A stretch of DNA of 63,438 bases from an uncultured Verrucomicrobiales bacterium (lineage in GTDB: Bacteria; Verrucomicrobiota; Verrucomicrobiia; Verrucomicrobiales; Akkermansiaceae): positions 1 to 63,438 of the forward strand of contig CALGLJ010000094.1 of assembly GCA_937930235.1 (NCBI GenBank), read 5' to 3'. The position numbers and the translations under genes are program-made. How positions within the stretch are numbered: position 1 is the first letter of the stretch; every line of letters begins with the position of its first letter. Below the pieces are notes generated by a model that was not told the DNA's origin, made no database searches, and saw only the letters and a list, made by a program, of their open reading frames with translations. Shown in pieces: positions 54,998 through 61,598 of the stretch.

Positions 54998-57679
54998 TCA
55001 CTCCTCATTGGAATCATTCTTTCGTTTCTCCTCATCAATGTGCTGGATCGCTTCCTGAATCGACTGCACCAGCGCTGGATCTTGATCTTTAAAATAATCC
55101 ATAATGCGACGTAACTCCAAACGAGCAGGTGGAAACTCGTCAGCCGATGCGATACTGAGAAGATAATGATCAATCGGATTATCGTCATTCGCTCCTGTTT
55201 CAGAGATTTTTCCCAAGAGATAATAATCCCGCGCTGTCAGCATCCCGCCTATTTTATGCATTTGCTCATCAGAAAAATCACTCCCCCCAAAAAGCTGATC
55301 ACCGATTCCCCCTAAATCCTTGATCTCTTCCAAGATCTCTCCAAACCGCTTGGCCGTCCTAGAAGAATCTTGGTATTTTTCATTATCGTAAGCAAGCCGA
55401 GGAGCCTGCCACGTTACAACTGGGCGGTTATCTGTATTGAGAGACGCATTCTTACAAAAAACATGCAGCTCATCATTCGACATGAAAATCGTTGCGAAAA
55501 AATCGAGTTCATCTCTGAGAAGAATCTTCCTTAAGAGCACTCGGGCTCCCAGCTCCTGAAATACCGGACTTTCAAAATGAGGCTGAAACTTCACCGCTTC
55601 ATGCCCCCCGATCAGCCCCAAAGTAGGAGTTCCCACATTATAAGATGCCATTAACAGATAGGCATCAGGAAACACTTCTAAAAAAGTGCGGCTGATGAGC
55701 TTCAAGGTCTCGGTATCCATCTGATAATAAGGCAGCCACTGGCAAAATATCCCCTGCTTTCCATCTTGCATCGGAGACAACCGTTCTTTGATCGCCTCGA
55801 AATGCTCTTGCGTGTAAAGCGCCCCTGCACCATCACGCGCGGGTTGAAACAGATCTCCAATGATCAAATCATATCGCTGGTCTGTCGTCTTAGCGAAACG
55901 GCGCGCATCAGCGGTATAGACCTTCAAGTTCGGTTGCTTCGTGGGATCCTGATTGGCTTTCGCAAATAGGGGCAAGGCCTCCACCACCTCGGGGATGAGC
56001 TCGACCCCATCAGCCTGAATTTGCGGGAAACTTGCCATCGTCCCAAAAGTCACCCCAGGACCGAGCCCCAAAAAAAGCGCATTTTGAGGATCGGGATGAA
56101 GCAGAGCTGGCAAGGTCGCCATTCGCTTCTCAATAAAATTCGCCCCAGTCCCCCCCATAATAAAGAGATTATTGACTTTCAAACGACGATCTCCCCCCGG
56201 CTCCTCAAGGACGGCAACGGTAGCAACCACCCCTTCCTTATAATACACAAACTCCTCCTCTTCATCCAGCTCCAGCAAGGATAACCGGACCGTAGTCAAA
56301 AAGGCGATCAGCCCAATACATCCCAGCGGTAAATAAAACCGTCTCAGATCTTGAAACAAAAGAAGGTAGCAAAAAGCGATGAAAAGCAAGGTCAGCTCGA
56401 TTCCAAAAAACGGGAGTATTATCAGACCAAATAACGGAGAAGCGAGAGAGCCACCCAAAGTATTGATGGCAAATGAAGTCCCTACCCCCCGGCCTGAAGC
56501 CTTCATCATACCCGCCAGATGACCAAAGCTCATGCCCATAAAGATCGTGGGCAAAGCGAACACCATTGCCGAAACGGCAACCTCAGAAATCACGGCTCCC
56601 AGGAGACCTTCGTTGAGTTCTCTCATTCTACGATAAGCCTGATCCGCTACCGACAGAAGAAAGAATCCTAAGCTACAGCTCAATGACAGTGCGATTGCAA
56701 GAAAGCTTAGGACAACCCCGTGCTTCTGGGTTTGTGAAAGAAACTTTTGATAAAGCGCCGCTCCCACGGCCGTCCCCAGCAAATAAACAAAGAGAGCTGA
56801 AGCGTAGGTATAAATGGTATTTTGAAAAATCTGGGTCAGGGCACGAATCCCCACAATCTCGTAGGCAATTCCTAATAACCCCGTAAGAAACAAAGCCATC
56901 GGGACAGAAAATGAAACCGCTTCTCTCGGCGGATGACTTACCGGAGCCGACCGTTTAAAAACCCGAGCAGGCCCCACCGCAATCAAACCCGCAGCTAAAA
57001 AATCACATGCCGCCAGCGCATAGATGCTTCCGTTAAATCCAAATACCGGCATTAAGAAAAAGATACTCAGCAAGATCCCTGCTGCCCCACCTGCCGTATT
57101 CGCGGCATAAAGCCCAGATACCCGCTCTTTCGTACCGTGAAGAGACACCAATCGATCAATCACCGGCAAAGTCGCCCCCATCGCAAAGGTACACGGAAGA
57201 AGCACCAGAAAAGGCAAACTGAACGAAAACGCCCAATGCTCAAATGCTCCAGGCGCAGGACCTAACACATGCCCTAAGAAATCATTCGCCCACGGGATCA
57301 AAAATGTTCCCAATACACTCCAAATTGCGGCCACCAATTCCAGAATCACAAAAAGCTTTGCCACATTTTGTGTCTTTTGGAGCACTTTCTGAATCCCCCA
57401 ACTTCCGAGAGCAAATCCTAAAAATATTGCCGCTAAAATCGCAATCAAAGATGGCATCTCATGTCCCAATCCCAAAGAAAACCCTCGCGTCCAAATAATC
57501 TGGTATCCTAACCCCGCCACTCCTGAGAGGAAGAACGTCAAATGGATCAGCCACGCAAATTGAAGCCCCCCCTCCCGATTAGAATTTTTTTGTGTCATCT
57601 TGAGCTTATGAGAAAAATAGATTTCCCGATGAAAAAACATTGAGCGAATCTTGTATACTAAAAGTTTTTCAGTACGCAA
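54998..57679 (-). CDS. Fused MFS-like/spermidine synthase-like protein
   Basis: N-terminal multi-TM region (FFLSGVAGLGYQIIWTRGFSLGLGHEMPSLIAILAAIFLGFALGSW); C-terminal FLGLGPGVTFGTMASFP...VELIPEVVEALPLF...VYTADARRFAKTTDQRYDLIIGDLFQPA. Confidence 0.88.
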   Translation of the reverse strand: MRTEKLLVYKIRSMFFHREIYFSHKLKMTQKNSNREGGLQFAWLIHLTFFLSGVAGLGYQIIWTRGFSLGLGHEMPSLIAILAAIFLGFALGSWGIQKVLQKTQNVAKLFVILELVAAIWSVLGTFLIPWANDFLGHVLGPAPGAFEHWAFSFSLPFLVLLPCTFAMGATLPVIDRLVSLHGTKERVSGLYAANTAGGAAGILLSIFFLMPVFGFNGSIYALAACDFLAAGLIAVGPARVFKRSAPVSHPPREAVSFSVPMALFLTGLLGIAYEIVGIRALTQIFQNTIYTYASALFVYLLGTAVGAALYQKFLSQTQKHGVVLSFLAIALSLSCSLGFFLLSVADQAYRRMRELNEGLLGAVISEVAVSAMVFALPTIFMGMSFGHLAGMMKASGRGVGTSFAINTLGGSLASPLFGLIILPFFGIELTLLFIAFCYLLLFQDLRRFYLPLGCIGLIAFLTTVRLSLLELDEEEEFVYYKEGVVATVAVLEEPGGDRRLKVNNLFIMGGTGANFIEKRMATLPALLHPDPQNALFLGLGPGVTFGTMASFPQIQADGVELIPEVVEALPLFAKANQDPTKQPNLKVYTADARRFAKTTDQRYDLIIGDLFQPARDGAGALYTQEHFEAIKERLSPMQDGKQGIFCQWLPYYQMDTETLKLISRTFLEVFPDAYLLMASYNVGTPTLGLIGGHEAVKFQPHFESPVFQELGARVLLRKILLRDELDFFATIFMSNDELHVFCKNASLNTDNRPVVTWQAPRLAYDNEKYQDSSRTAKRFGEILEEIKDLGGIGDQLFGGSDFSDEQMHKIGGMLTARDYYLLGKISETGANDDNPIDHYLLSIASADEFPPARLELRRIMDYFKDQDPALVQSIQEAIQHIDEEKRKNDSNEE

Positions 57680-57680
57680 A

Positions 57681-57710
57681 AAGGTGTACGCTCATTAAAA
57701 CGTACACCTT
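57681..57710 (-). terminator. Rho-independent terminator downstream of fascin-like gene 1
   Basis: 10-bp perfect stem AAGGTGTACG/CGTACACCTT; followed by T-run on the minus strand. Confidence 0.8.
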
Positions 57711-57789
57711 ATAAGGAATATGAGTCACCCCCTTCCCGAGAGACTTGTCTTTTTATACGCCTCCCGAGAAGTGATGAACAAATTTTCCA

Positions 57790-58326
57790 TTAACGAGCAA
57801 ACCCCCCAGGTCGTTGGTTAAACTCGTTGAACAGCTCGGATATACCCGCTGATCTACGGTTACAACGCATCGCACGGCGTCCACCTTCACTCGATACGAA
57901 ACGGTTATTGTTACCACGGACCGTAAGCGCTCTGCCACGGAAACCAGAAATCGCCCGACGAGCATTTTCAACGCGGAATCTCTCTTGGCTCCCAATTCTG
58001 TTACGGTTCGCACGCATCGCACGACGTCCATTCTCAGAAGAGACATAACGATTTGTAAGGTTACTGCGGAAAGCAACGAGATTATTACTCAAGACACGAG
58101 CCGTAAACTGTGCTGCACGTCCCAGATTCCGTCTATTTGCACGTAGTCTGTTGTTCCGAGGATTCACTCTGACGAAGCGACCGTTCTCCTGAGCAAAGAA
58201 TCTGACAACCTGGTTATTTCTTTGTGCGAATACTTTCTCTTCGCCCTGAGCCTGCTGCGCACCGTTGAAAGTGCCCACTGTTGCTGCTGCGAGAGCTAAT
58301 GCCCCCGTGATTATTATTTTTTTCAT
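57790..58326 (-). CDS. Secreted, Arg-rich fascin-like (beta-trefoil) repeat protein 1
   Basis: MKKIIITGALALAAATVGTFNGAQQAQGEEKVFAQRNNQVV signal region; repeats NRYVSSENGRRAMRANRNRIGSQERFRV and NRFVSSEGGRRAMRCNRRSAG; start at internal ATG. Confidence 0.75.
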   Translation of the reverse strand: MKKIIITGALALAAATVGTFNGAQQAQGEEKVFAQRNNQVVRFFAQENGRFVRVNPRNNRLRANRRNLGRAAQFTARVLSNNLVAFRSNLTNRYVSSENGRRAMRANRNRIGSQERFRVENARRAISGFRGRALTVRGNNNRFVSSEGGRRAMRCNRRSAGISELFNEFNQRPGGFAR

Positions 58327-58425
58327 ATTTTTGTATTTGATGCATATATAATGCAATTTTCCCAATGCAGTGATCTGCACCAGAAAAGCTTTGAGAGCTG
58401 ACTGACTCACCATTCCGCTAAGATC

Positions 58426-59343
58426 TTAGCGCTGGCTTTTCCACTCGTTATAGCCCTCTAAATCGGTTTTTTTCCAAATATTTACGATGCCTTCCATCGC
58501 TGATTTCCGAAGGCCTTCATCAGTGAGAGTCTCGGCCCAAGCCATGGATGCGGCTGGATCGTGGGGAGCACTTGTTTCGACCATTTCATAAAGAGCGGCA
58601 TCGAGCACGGGAGAGTATTCTAATTGGCTAAAATACTCGAATGCCTCCTTATAATCCTTTTCCAGCCAAGTCTTCGCAAGTCCCTCAAAGTAATTTGAAC
58701 GGACATCTTCGGAATAACTCCCATTTAAAATCTCCGCATGCTTCTCAGGTTCAAAATCACCATTTTTCCCGATCTCTTGTCCAATTTGCCACGAGGATTC
58801 CTCAATTCCATTGAATTCTGGCCATTTCTCGAGGTAGCTGAATGCTTTCTCAGGAGACTCCTTCCAATAAGGTAACAAAAAACGAGCAAGTAATGGCACT
58901 GCCAAATCTGGATTGGGATCGAGTAACTCAAAGCCATTCAATCCATCCTCAGTCCGGCCTGAATCGACAAAATGCTCCACCAGAACATCACCGATGGCAT
59001 CGTAATTGAGATCTGCGGTGAGCTTTCCGAAGAGTTCCAAAGCTTTAGTTTCATCTTCAGCCAAGAGACGGCGGGCATGATTCTTCAAAGCTTCATCACC
59101 TAAGAGAGAAGATTCAAAGAGCGCTTCGTGCTCCGGATTTCGATCTATTTGTTTCTTCCGATTCGTAAAGCTCGGTTCTGATGAAGAACTCCCGGATGAA
59201 GAACGGAAATCGCCATTGCTCGAAACATGGAGATGCCCATGGTCTGACCCCGAACGATGCCGGACTTTATCAACGAGCAAGAAAATGATGATGGCCACCA
59301 AAACCACCCCGACCGAAATAATCGATTTTTTAGTAAGTTTCAT
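58426..59343 (-). CDS. Membrane-anchored/secreted hypothetical protein, helical-repeat-like
   Basis: N-terminal TM (SIISVGVVLVAIIIFLLVD), Ser-rich linker, alpha-helical DPAASMAWAETLTDEGLRKSAMEGIVNIW-type repeats. Confidence 0.6.
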   Translation of the reverse strand: MKLTKKSIISVGVVLVAIIIFLLVDKVRHRSGSDHGHLHVSSNGDFRSSSGSSSSEPSFTNRKKQIDRNPEHEALFESSLLGDEALKNHARRLLAEDETKALELFGKLTADLNYDAIGDVLVEHFVDSGRTEDGLNGFELLDPNPDLAVPLLARFLLPYWKESPEKAFSYLEKWPEFNGIEESSWQIGQEIGKNGDFEPEKHAEILNGSYSEDVRSNYFEGLAKTWLEKDYKEAFEYFSQLEYSPVLDAALYEMVETSAPHDPAASMAWAETLTDEGLRKSAMEGIVNIWKKTDLEGYNEWKSQR

Positions 59344-59345
59344 GT

Positions 59346-60530
59346 TTATTTAGAAATTGTCACTTCGCACCAAGCGCGACCTGATTGATCGACTCCTTCT
59401 TCGACGACGCGTAGTTGGAAGAGCTTATTCTGTGCGGAGAATGTTTCACCTTTTTGAAAGCCTAGCCGTTCGGGATAGATCTCAGGGTGATATCCACTTG
59501 GAGAAGAATCGGCTGGAAAGGATTCGACCAAAAAGTCTTCACTGCGCTGCACGATCACTCCCGATGCTGCTTCCACCCCAAATCCCTCAGTTGGTTTGAG
59601 ATTGCTTTCCGTTTTTCTCAAATAGCTGACCCAATAAGTTTTTAAGGAAGATTCCTTGATTCGCAACCCAGTGAGCTGTCCCTCCTCGAGAGATTGCTTC
59701 AAGTCATACAGGCGATAGGTCTGCTCCTGACTCTTTAATTCCACCAGCGGGACATGCTCCTCTCCGAGAGCTTTGAGCTGGAAACGCATTGGCAATGGAA
59801 GAGGAGTTAAAAAGAGAGGAGTAGAATCCCCCATCATAAACCAGGGATCAGAGGAAGGCGGTGCCGTCGGATCTGTCCCGCGGCGATCACGAAAGTTGAC
59901 TGCGGCATGGCCGAGTCCAAAGGAATGCCCCAGTTCATGCACGAAGGTGTGACTTTCGAAATAATTTCCTGGATACCAGACTTTTCCCTTCGCCCCCCAT
60001 GCCGATTGGTCATTTGTGATTCTCGGAAAAGACATCACAACATGATCAAATTGTGCCGTATCAATACCTGCTTCTTTAGCCACCACTACAGATTCCTTAT
60101 ATATCCGATCAAGGTTATCATGATATGCCTCAGCTTCTTGAGGAAGAGTGAGAATTGGTGAAATCACTGGGTCCTGAAACTGCTCAAAGGAACCATAAAG
60201 ATTTTCATTCCAATAACGATTTGCCTGTTCGATTTCCTTTTTAAAATTTGCTCTCCACTCGGCATCTAACAAGTCCATCTTGTGCCCCTTAAACTCAAGT
60301 CTAAGGCAGAGAATAGAAGGGCGCGAGCCGGGTGCCTCGAAAACAACTACCTTCTGATTCTTGGTGTAAAAATAACTGAGACGAGAAGACCCCATCCAAA
60401 TCCCAATGAGAACAAGTGCAATCATCAAAATCCCAAACCAACCATCAAACAAGTTGACAATTTTAGATTTTTTTCTGACTTGCGACTCATCATGCGAATC
60501 AAAAATTTGCGGAGAATCTGACTTCATCAA
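59346..60530 (-). CDS. Membrane-anchored zinc metalloprotease (metzincin-like)
   Basis: HELGHSFGLGH (HExxHxxGxxH) with downstream Met-turn-like WFMMGDS; N-terminal TM helix. Confidence 0.75.
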   Translation of the reverse strand: MMKSDSPQIFDSHDESQVRKKSKIVNLFDGWFGILMIALVLIGIWMGSSRLSYFYTKNQKVVVFEAPGSRPSILCLRLEFKGHKMDLLDAEWRANFKKEIEQANRYWNENLYGSFEQFQDPVISPILTLPQEAEAYHDNLDRIYKESVVVAKEAGIDTAQFDHVVMSFPRITNDQSAWGAKGKVWYPGNYFESHTFVHELGHSFGLGHAAVNFRDRRGTDPTAPPSSDPWFMMGDSTPLFLTPLPLPMRFQLKALGEEHVPLVELKSQEQTYRLYDLKQSLEEGQLTGLRIKESSLKTYWVSYLRKTESNLKPTEGFGVEAASGVIVQRSEDFLVESFPADSSPSGYHPEIYPERLGFQKGETFSAQNKLFQLRVVEEGVDQSGRAWCEVTISK

Positions 60531-60736
60531 AGTGTGTGCGTGTTAAAGTGTTAACTTGGACTTAAAAAATAAAATCTCAACTCCTTTATTAAAAAAAAAT
60601 TAACTTTATTTTTTGATATCCTCACAAAAGAACGCAGACCAAAAATGGCGCTTCCGCTGGTTAGAGATCCGGAGTCATTTTGGCACATCACTTCATCCGA
60701 ATTATATACATGCAAATCATATACCTGCAAAAAAAA

Positions 60737-60762
60737 CGTCCGCTTCAATAATGAAGCGGACG
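60737..60762 (-). terminator. Rho-independent terminator downstream of fascin-like gene 2
   Basis: 10-bp stem CGTCCGCTTC/GAAGCGGACG; the plus-strand A-run to its left is a T-run on the minus strand. Confidence 0.8.
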
Positions 60763-60841
60763 CCTTAAAATTAACTTGAATCCATCACCGCTCAAGAGAC
60801 CTGCTTAAAGCGGGGCTCGAGAAGTGATCGACAAGCTTCGA

Positions 60842-61345
60842 CTAGAGTGGAATGACTCCACCTCTTGAGAATGGAAGAAATTGCTCGAAAGATCTCAGAG
60901 CTCCTCGGTTACAACGCATCGCACGGCGTCCACGTTCGGAGGAGACAAAGCGATTGTTGTTACCACGGAAACCAATTGCACTGCGCCCGGAAGGCACGAC
61001 TTGGAATCTCTCGAAGCTACCGATTCTGTTGCGGTTAGCACGCATTGAACGACGTCCATTCTCTGATGAGACATAGCGATTACCTCTACGGAAAGCAACA
61101 CGGTTGTTAGCCAAGACACGAGCGGTAAAACGCTCACGAGACCTTAGACGCGTTGCATTTGCACGCATGGTTGTGTTGCCAGCCACGCTAACATAGCGAT
61201 CATTGATGAGCGCCAACCAGCCGACTACTTGGTTATTTCTTTGAGCGAATACTTTTTCTTCGCTCTTTGCTTCTTGCGCACCATTAAAGATGCCTACAGC
61301 TGCTACTGCGAGAGCCATTGCTCCCGTGACTATTAGTTTCTTCAT
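60842..61345 (-). CDS. Secreted, Arg-rich fascin-like (beta-trefoil) repeat protein 2
   Basis: MKKLIVTGAMALAVAAVGIFNGAQEAKSEEKVFAQRNNQVV; NRYVSSENGRRSMRANRNRIGSFERFQV and NRFVSSERGRRAMRCNRGALRSFEQF; start at internal ATG. Confidence 0.75.
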   Translation of the reverse strand: MKKLIVTGAMALAVAAVGIFNGAQEAKSEEKVFAQRNNQVVGWLALINDRYVSVAGNTTMRANATRLRSRERFTARVLANNRVAFRRGNRYVSSENGRRSMRANRNRIGSFERFQVVPSGRSAIGFRGNNNRFVSSERGRRAMRCNRGALRSFEQFLPFSRGGVIPL

Positions 61346-61598
61346 ATTGTTTGTGTTTTTGTTACCAACGTAGCTTTCTACGCTAGAGAGTTTTGAGAGA
61401 TCAATGGCTGTCATCTATAATTTCATCGATGCCATCAGCATTAATTATACCTCTCTAAAGTTGTATTTGTCGATTTCCCATTCTGACTTCACTGCTAATT
61501 ATTGCAAGCTCTGTTTTAGAAAATTTTCGGAAGTTATCAAAAAAATCTAGGCTATAATTTTTACTTATTTTGGCCATCTCAAAAAAACTAACATTAGA

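Follow-up and report, generated by a model that had tools for sequence, protein, structure and literature searches.

Arginine-rich CBM92-like trefoils beside a membrane-anchored solenoid and a metzincin in an uncultured Verrucomicrobiales bacterium: a possible glycan-binding module of the cell envelope

The window analysed here is a 63,438-nucleotide stretch of DNA from an uncultured Verrucomicrobiales bacterium (contig CALGLJ010000094.1, positions 1 to 63,438), and this text concerns four of its genes between positions 57,681 and 61,345. Read along the minus strand, trefoil B (61345-60842) comes first, followed by the protease (60527-59346), the helical protein (59343-58426) and trefoil A (58326-57790). 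As judged from the CBM92-bearing and other secreted-protein neighbours in relatives, the constant pair is a secreted protein of glycan-binding type and a membrane-anchored solenoid, and the protease is a recurrent third part. The four genes may form an envelope module that binds glycans, in which the trefoils would bind charged glycans, the solenoid would escort or retain them, and the protease, a metzincin, would act on the trefoils or on gathered glycoproteins; this reading is favoured here, but tentatively.

The arrangement is not due to chance, because a second contig of the same genome, C8, carries a protease (46-47% identical to that of the window), a helical protein (43-46%) and a trefoil (44%), in an unchanged order and with nearly the same spacing. 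The C8 block has no second trefoil upstream; the assembly of the source genome is fragmented and 87% complete. In each copy, 2-12 bp separate the protease gene from the solenoid gene, and their start and stop almost touch. Since the synonymous sites of the protease and the helical protein are saturated between the two blocks and the order is kept, the gene order has been maintained over a long time. The explanation that unrelated genes came together by chance and that the block was duplicated once can appeal to the fact that the exact cluster was found in the source genome only. However, it is very improbable, as the blocks have diverged to 44-47% identity with order and spacing retained, and other genomes have parts of the same kinds as fusions and as neighbours.

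The sequence-only reading of this DNA had linked the small proteins to the protease. That link withstands the refuting condition set in the same reading, relatives in which the small genes never lie near the protease: there is the C8 copy, and metzincin-CBM92 fusions occur in two other genomes. The emphasis moves, however, to the helical protein, which is the most constant partner of the trefoils because it pairs with CBM92 and other secreted beta-proteins where such a protease is absent. A helical-profile search over 260 genomes of the family, in which further members were picked by sequence score only, gave four close members and another four of greater distance; the close ones are all located at genes for CBM92 or trefoil proteins, and two of the distant ones lie behind other secreted proteins. 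In genome G011, a Cys-rich CBM92 protein precedes a VKOR-DsbA gene and a close helical homologue, opposite a porphyranase-type enzyme with a CBM92, and a GH16-like CBM92 protein is directly followed by another close helical homologue. In genome G009, the gene that comes after a beta-helix CBM92 protein encodes a helical protein with no relation to P0004 by BLAST. In genome G372, a distant helical gene stands directly behind a small secreted trefoil-like protein, whose Fascin and ricin-lectin matches are just under cut-off; no protease accompanies this pair of trefoil and solenoid.

Under a crude signal-peptide rule, which misses the GH16 neighbour in locus L063 and counts the protease as exported, 12 of the 15 short-form helical genes have a codirectional exported soluble neighbour, compared with 32/117 (27%) in the background (Fisher P 1e-4) and 2/11 among long-form relatives (P 0.003); these P values are indicative, as several loci come from one genome and are not fully independent. 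The short-form neighbours are mostly beta-helix, trefoil or CBM-bearing proteins, with some of the beta-helix assignments made by appearance of the sequence and lacking a Pfam match, and they include a CBM6/35 protein and an agarase-type galactose-binding protein. The long-form relatives (about 450-480 aa; L124, L125, L128 and others) are abundant in Verrucomicrobiales and often stand beside sigma factors of the extracytoplasmic function (ECF) type or beside each other, so that their surroundings differ from those of the short form.

It is conceivable, though somewhat doubtful, that short membrane-anchored solenoids act across the family as dedicated escort, retention or assembly partners of secreted beta-rich glycan-binding proteins, with the set in the window as the most elaborate form. 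No description of such a solenoid-partner secretion or display arrangement was found. Were the pairing with a solenoid a general means of escort or display, it would account for a large set of Verrucomicrobiales helical-repeat proteins that lack a Pfam match, and for the way in which these bacteria deal with secreted beta-proteins directed at algal or mucin-like glycans.

The sequence-only reading had described the two small proteins as fascin-like or beta-trefoil-like, and this is supported by sequence comparison, with CBM92 domains as the closest solved relatives. In phmmer searches against the PDB, the best matches were 7zoh and 7zoi (CpCBM92A/B), with E values of 3.8e-19 for trefoil B, about 1e-12 for A and 1e-13 for the C8 copy. 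A profile of these three sequences also reaches the fascins (PDB 1dfc and others) at E values of about 1e-8, in agreement with a shared beta-trefoil repeat signature. The trefoils differ from fascins in being single, secreted and bacterial and in staying under the Pfam cut-off: against Fascin (PF06268), B scores 19.6 bits, under the gathering threshold of 23.1, and A has no listed match. CBM92 is the closer relative. Three repeats are visible in the alignment of each trefoil, and an AlphaFold2 (AF2) model of B from two sequences (A and B) reached a predicted local distance difference test score (pLDDT) of only 32.

As in CpCBM92A/B (PMC11039641), the trefoils are secreted and have three repeats of the form [YF]VSSE.G...M.[CA]NR......E.F, with an Arg and a Glu in the beta and gamma clefts. 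CBM92 is a three-site beta-trefoil in which the Trp and Glu of a WExF motif and a nearby Arg hold the sugar, and binding is impaired or abolished when the Trp is replaced in two or three of the sites (PMC11039641). Some members of the family are without WExF, among them the founder, a carrageenan binder, which is believed to rely on Phe and Arg, and almost all published members are attached to a carbohydrate-active enzyme (PMC11039641). In contrast, trefoils A and B are stand-alone proteins of 167-178 aa with no attached carbohydrate-active enzyme, and they and the C8 copy lack the WExF Trp in all nine sites, contain 19-22% Arg and have practically no Lys. Among 58 related genomes, similar trefoils were found in just two others, both of the same genus, and all of these are Trp-bearing domains of larger proteins.

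The binding clefts of A, B and the C8 copy were aligned with CBM92 domains from the same bacterial genus, with the sites as defined in PMC11039641. Trp is present in 0/9 sites, and Glu and Arg are each kept in 7/9; in the beta and gamma sites, Arg is kept in 6/6 and Glu in 6/6. In trefoil B (60842..61345, minus strand, as are all features below), repeat alpha (DRYVSV...RERF, 61127..61201) has Arg in place of Trp and lacks the cleft Arg but keeps the Glu, and both repeat beta (NRYVSSENGRRSMRANRNRIGSFERF, 61004..61081) and repeat gamma (NRFVSSERGRRAMRCNRGALRSFEQF, 60878..60955) have Phe in place of Trp with Arg and Glu kept. In trefoil A (57790..58326), repeat alpha (58105..58182) has lost Trp and Glu and keeps Arg, whereas Trp is replaced by Gln in repeat beta (QERF, 57976..58053) and by Ser in repeat gamma (SELF, 57829..57906), each with Arg and Glu kept. 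The retained Arg and Glu, the Phe that replaces Trp in B and the existence of a founder without WExF suggest that the ligand of the trefoils may have changed and was not simply lost. We infer that acidic or sulfated glycans could be the new ligand.

The open reading frames (ORFs) of A (178 aa) and B (167 aa) both start with MKK[IL]I.TGA and a predicted signal peptide, which covers residues 1-28 in B (mature EEKVFAQ...), and they share the mature start EEKVFAQRNNQVV and repeats of the form NR[YF]VSSE.GRR.MR.NR. They are 64-66% identical to each other. Arg makes up 22% of mature A and 20% of mature B, with a single Lys in each, where the medians for 49 genes of the window are 5.6% Arg and 5.0% Lys; the probability of a Lys content this low, given the sum of Arg and Lys, is 3e-9 and 8e-8 for the two mature proteins. 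The mature parts of A (57790-58242), B (60842-61261) and the C8 copy (locus L015, 12720-13136) all combine 19-22% Arg with a near absence of Lys, which is beyond what charge alone requires. Between mature A and B, the nonsynonymous divergence (dN) is 0.30 and the synonymous divergence (dS) is 1.17; therefore, neither looks like a decaying copy, and both have been under purifying selection since an old duplication.

This composition could also mean that the trefoils are cationic matrix binders, which attach nonspecifically to extracellular DNA or lipopolysaccharide as a glue or an antimicrobial, with the neighbouring genes only aiding export and turnover. The net charge of +18 to +25, the isoelectric point of about 12 and the nearly Lys-free sequence are in its favour. 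However, Arg and Glu are kept exactly at the old beta and gamma clefts, which suggests a specific pocket, and none of the four proteins has a match to a defence family, so that nonspecific binding is quite unlikely.

The protease (59346..60527, 393 aa from the ATG) has one N-terminal transmembrane (TM) segment, with the catalytic domain predicted on the far side of the membrane. It belongs to the metzincin clan, as the zinc-binding motif HELGHSFGLGH (HExxHxxGxxH, 59907..59939), invariant between the two paralogues except for L/I, and a probable downstream Met-turn WFMMG (59829..59843), within an invariant DPWFMMG, are both conserved on C8. Its match to Pfam M66 (PF10462) reaches 20.2 bits, under the threshold of 20.6, and covers just 29 residues around the motif; Reprolysin_5 is also just below cut-off.

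Metzincin-CBM92 fusions in two families of Verrucomicrobiales (G011 and G073; CALAIY010000125.1 and CALGMJ010000148.1, both uncultured Verrucomicrobiales) combine the zinc motif with a CBM92 in one chain and stand in cassettes behind a TM protein and a TM-anchored helical-repeat protein. The two cassettes are 57-71% identical to each other. Their CBM92 keeps Trp in 2/3 repeats, and the cassette has the extra membrane protein between. The helical proteins are weakly related to that of the window (hhalign 1.6e-4), and the proteases are alike only around the zinc motif; therefore, what recurs in the cassettes are the kinds of component and not the operon itself. The middle gene of the cassette (4335-5081 in L079; 3956-4762, minus strand, in L064) is TM-anchored and has no Pfam or PDB sequence match; its C-terminal part reads like a reprolysin-type propeptide, which is presumably encoded separately here. 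As a further observation, the CBM92-bearing proteins of G011, a congener, include an enzyme of porphyranase type, a GH16-like one and a metzincin (loci L062, L063 and L064), which suggests the use of red-algal galactans.

A protease beside small trefoils also raises the possibility that the trefoils are secreted inhibitors of the metzincin which shield the envelope. Trefoils of the Kunitz and mycocypin types are protease inhibitors, and this explanation agrees with the presence of small secreted trefoils beside the protease in two copies and with the loss of the sugar-binding Trp. On the other hand, the trefoil family is a carbohydrate-binding one, the trefoil of G372 pairs with a solenoid without a protease, trefoil B has its own terminator ahead of the protease gene, and known trefoil inhibitors act on serine or cysteine proteases. 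Inhibition is thus improbable.

In the favoured reading of an envelope glycan-binding module, the trefoils would be exported and folded, and the membrane-anchored solenoid would be the dedicated partner that binds them for escort or retention. The repurposed CBM92 clefts, with Arg and Glu kept, Trp lost and an Arg-rich, Lys-free surface around them, would bind acidic or sulfated glycans. The metzincin might then cut glycoproteins concentrated by the trefoils, as a counterpart in trans to the metzincin-CBM92 fusions, or it might mature or turn over the trefoils delivered by the solenoid. Of the two trefoils, B, which carries Phe in two clefts and is followed by a terminator of its own, would bind more strongly, and A, co-transcribed behind the solenoid, would be a second form. 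Precedents for the protease step are the fusions and AMUC_1438 of Akkermansia, a metzincin that works with a carbohydrate-binding module and acts as an O-glycopeptidase (PMC9513282). This enzyme is likened here by description alone, and it differs in that its module has a CBM51-like sandwich fold and is part of the same chain. What the locus offers is stand-alone CBM92-type trefoils with rebuilt clefts, a clear hypothesis of charged-glycan ligands, and a membrane solenoid and a protease that are linked to them genetically.

Several points weigh against the envelope module. Loss of the Trp abolishes glucan binding in the tested CBM92 domains, and hence the sites could be dead; no usable AF2 model of the trefoil fold was obtained; and we infer the ligand, the substrate and the solenoid-trefoil interaction from sequence. 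A pattern scan of 84,980 genomes gave no relative of the window protease, whose exact family was seen only in the source genome; in the class as a whole, the nearest relative of this protease (G162) stands beside no trefoil, and the fusion proteases resemble the window protease around the zinc motif only. If the TM anchor is in the inner membrane, the protease would face the periplasm and not the outside. The AF2 model of the helical protein (305 aa, 58426..59343), which has a His-rich linker after the TM segment, is all-helical with a moderate pLDDT of 67, and Foldseek matches it in the PDB to generic alpha-solenoids, all at E >0.03; its Pfam Sel1 match is under cut-off.

The weak Foldseek matches include NlpI-MepS, LapB and CtpA-LbcA, which leads to the main rival explanation. 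NlpI and LbcA are tetratricopeptide repeat lipoproteins that present substrates to a periplasmic protease. The solenoid of the window could be such an adaptor, with the trefoils as substrates or regulators, and the locus would then control envelope proteolysis, carbohydrate binding being a relic. The 2-12 bp spacing of the protease and solenoid genes in both copies and the loss of the glucan-binding Trp are consistent with this explanation, and the organisation, a membrane-attached alpha-solenoid next to a protease, is the same. However, the structural likeness is weak and generic, as the Foldseek matches indicate an alpha-solenoid only, and solenoids of the same type adjoin secreted proteins of the CBM92, beta-helix and trefoil kinds where no metzincin is close by, the constant neighbour of the solenoid being the secreted protein and not the protease. 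The adaptor explanation is accordingly considered unlikely.

The remaining claims of the sequence-only reading concern the layout of the locus. ORFs and sequence confirm four genes on one strand at this place, two paralogous and extremely Arg-rich secreted proteins with a common mature start and repeats, a TM-anchored HExxHxxGxxH protease, and a second TM-anchored gene for a helical-repeat protein, in which the TM segment is followed by helices in the AF2 model. A 10-bp stem terminator had been noted behind each trefoil. This holds for trefoil A, where a perfect 10-bp stem is followed by T5 (57681..57710), but not for trefoil B, where the perfect stem is of 11 bp, with a 4-nt loop and a T-run (60737..60762). 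From these two stems, trefoil B probably forms its own transcript, and the protease, the helical protein and trefoil A a second one. A promoter-like site 5' of trefoil B (TCGACA-18-TATAAT, 61444..61473) matches the consensus at 11/12 positions and is weak, as the number of such sites in the region is at shuffle level.

Searches of viral contigs and phages gave no relative, and plasmids gave one weak CBM92-type match only, so that a phage or plasmid origin is without support. Nothing ties to the module the gene at 54998-57679 (minus strand), which lies directly behind the trefoil A terminator and encodes an 893-aa membrane protein with a spermidine-synthase-like C-terminal domain.

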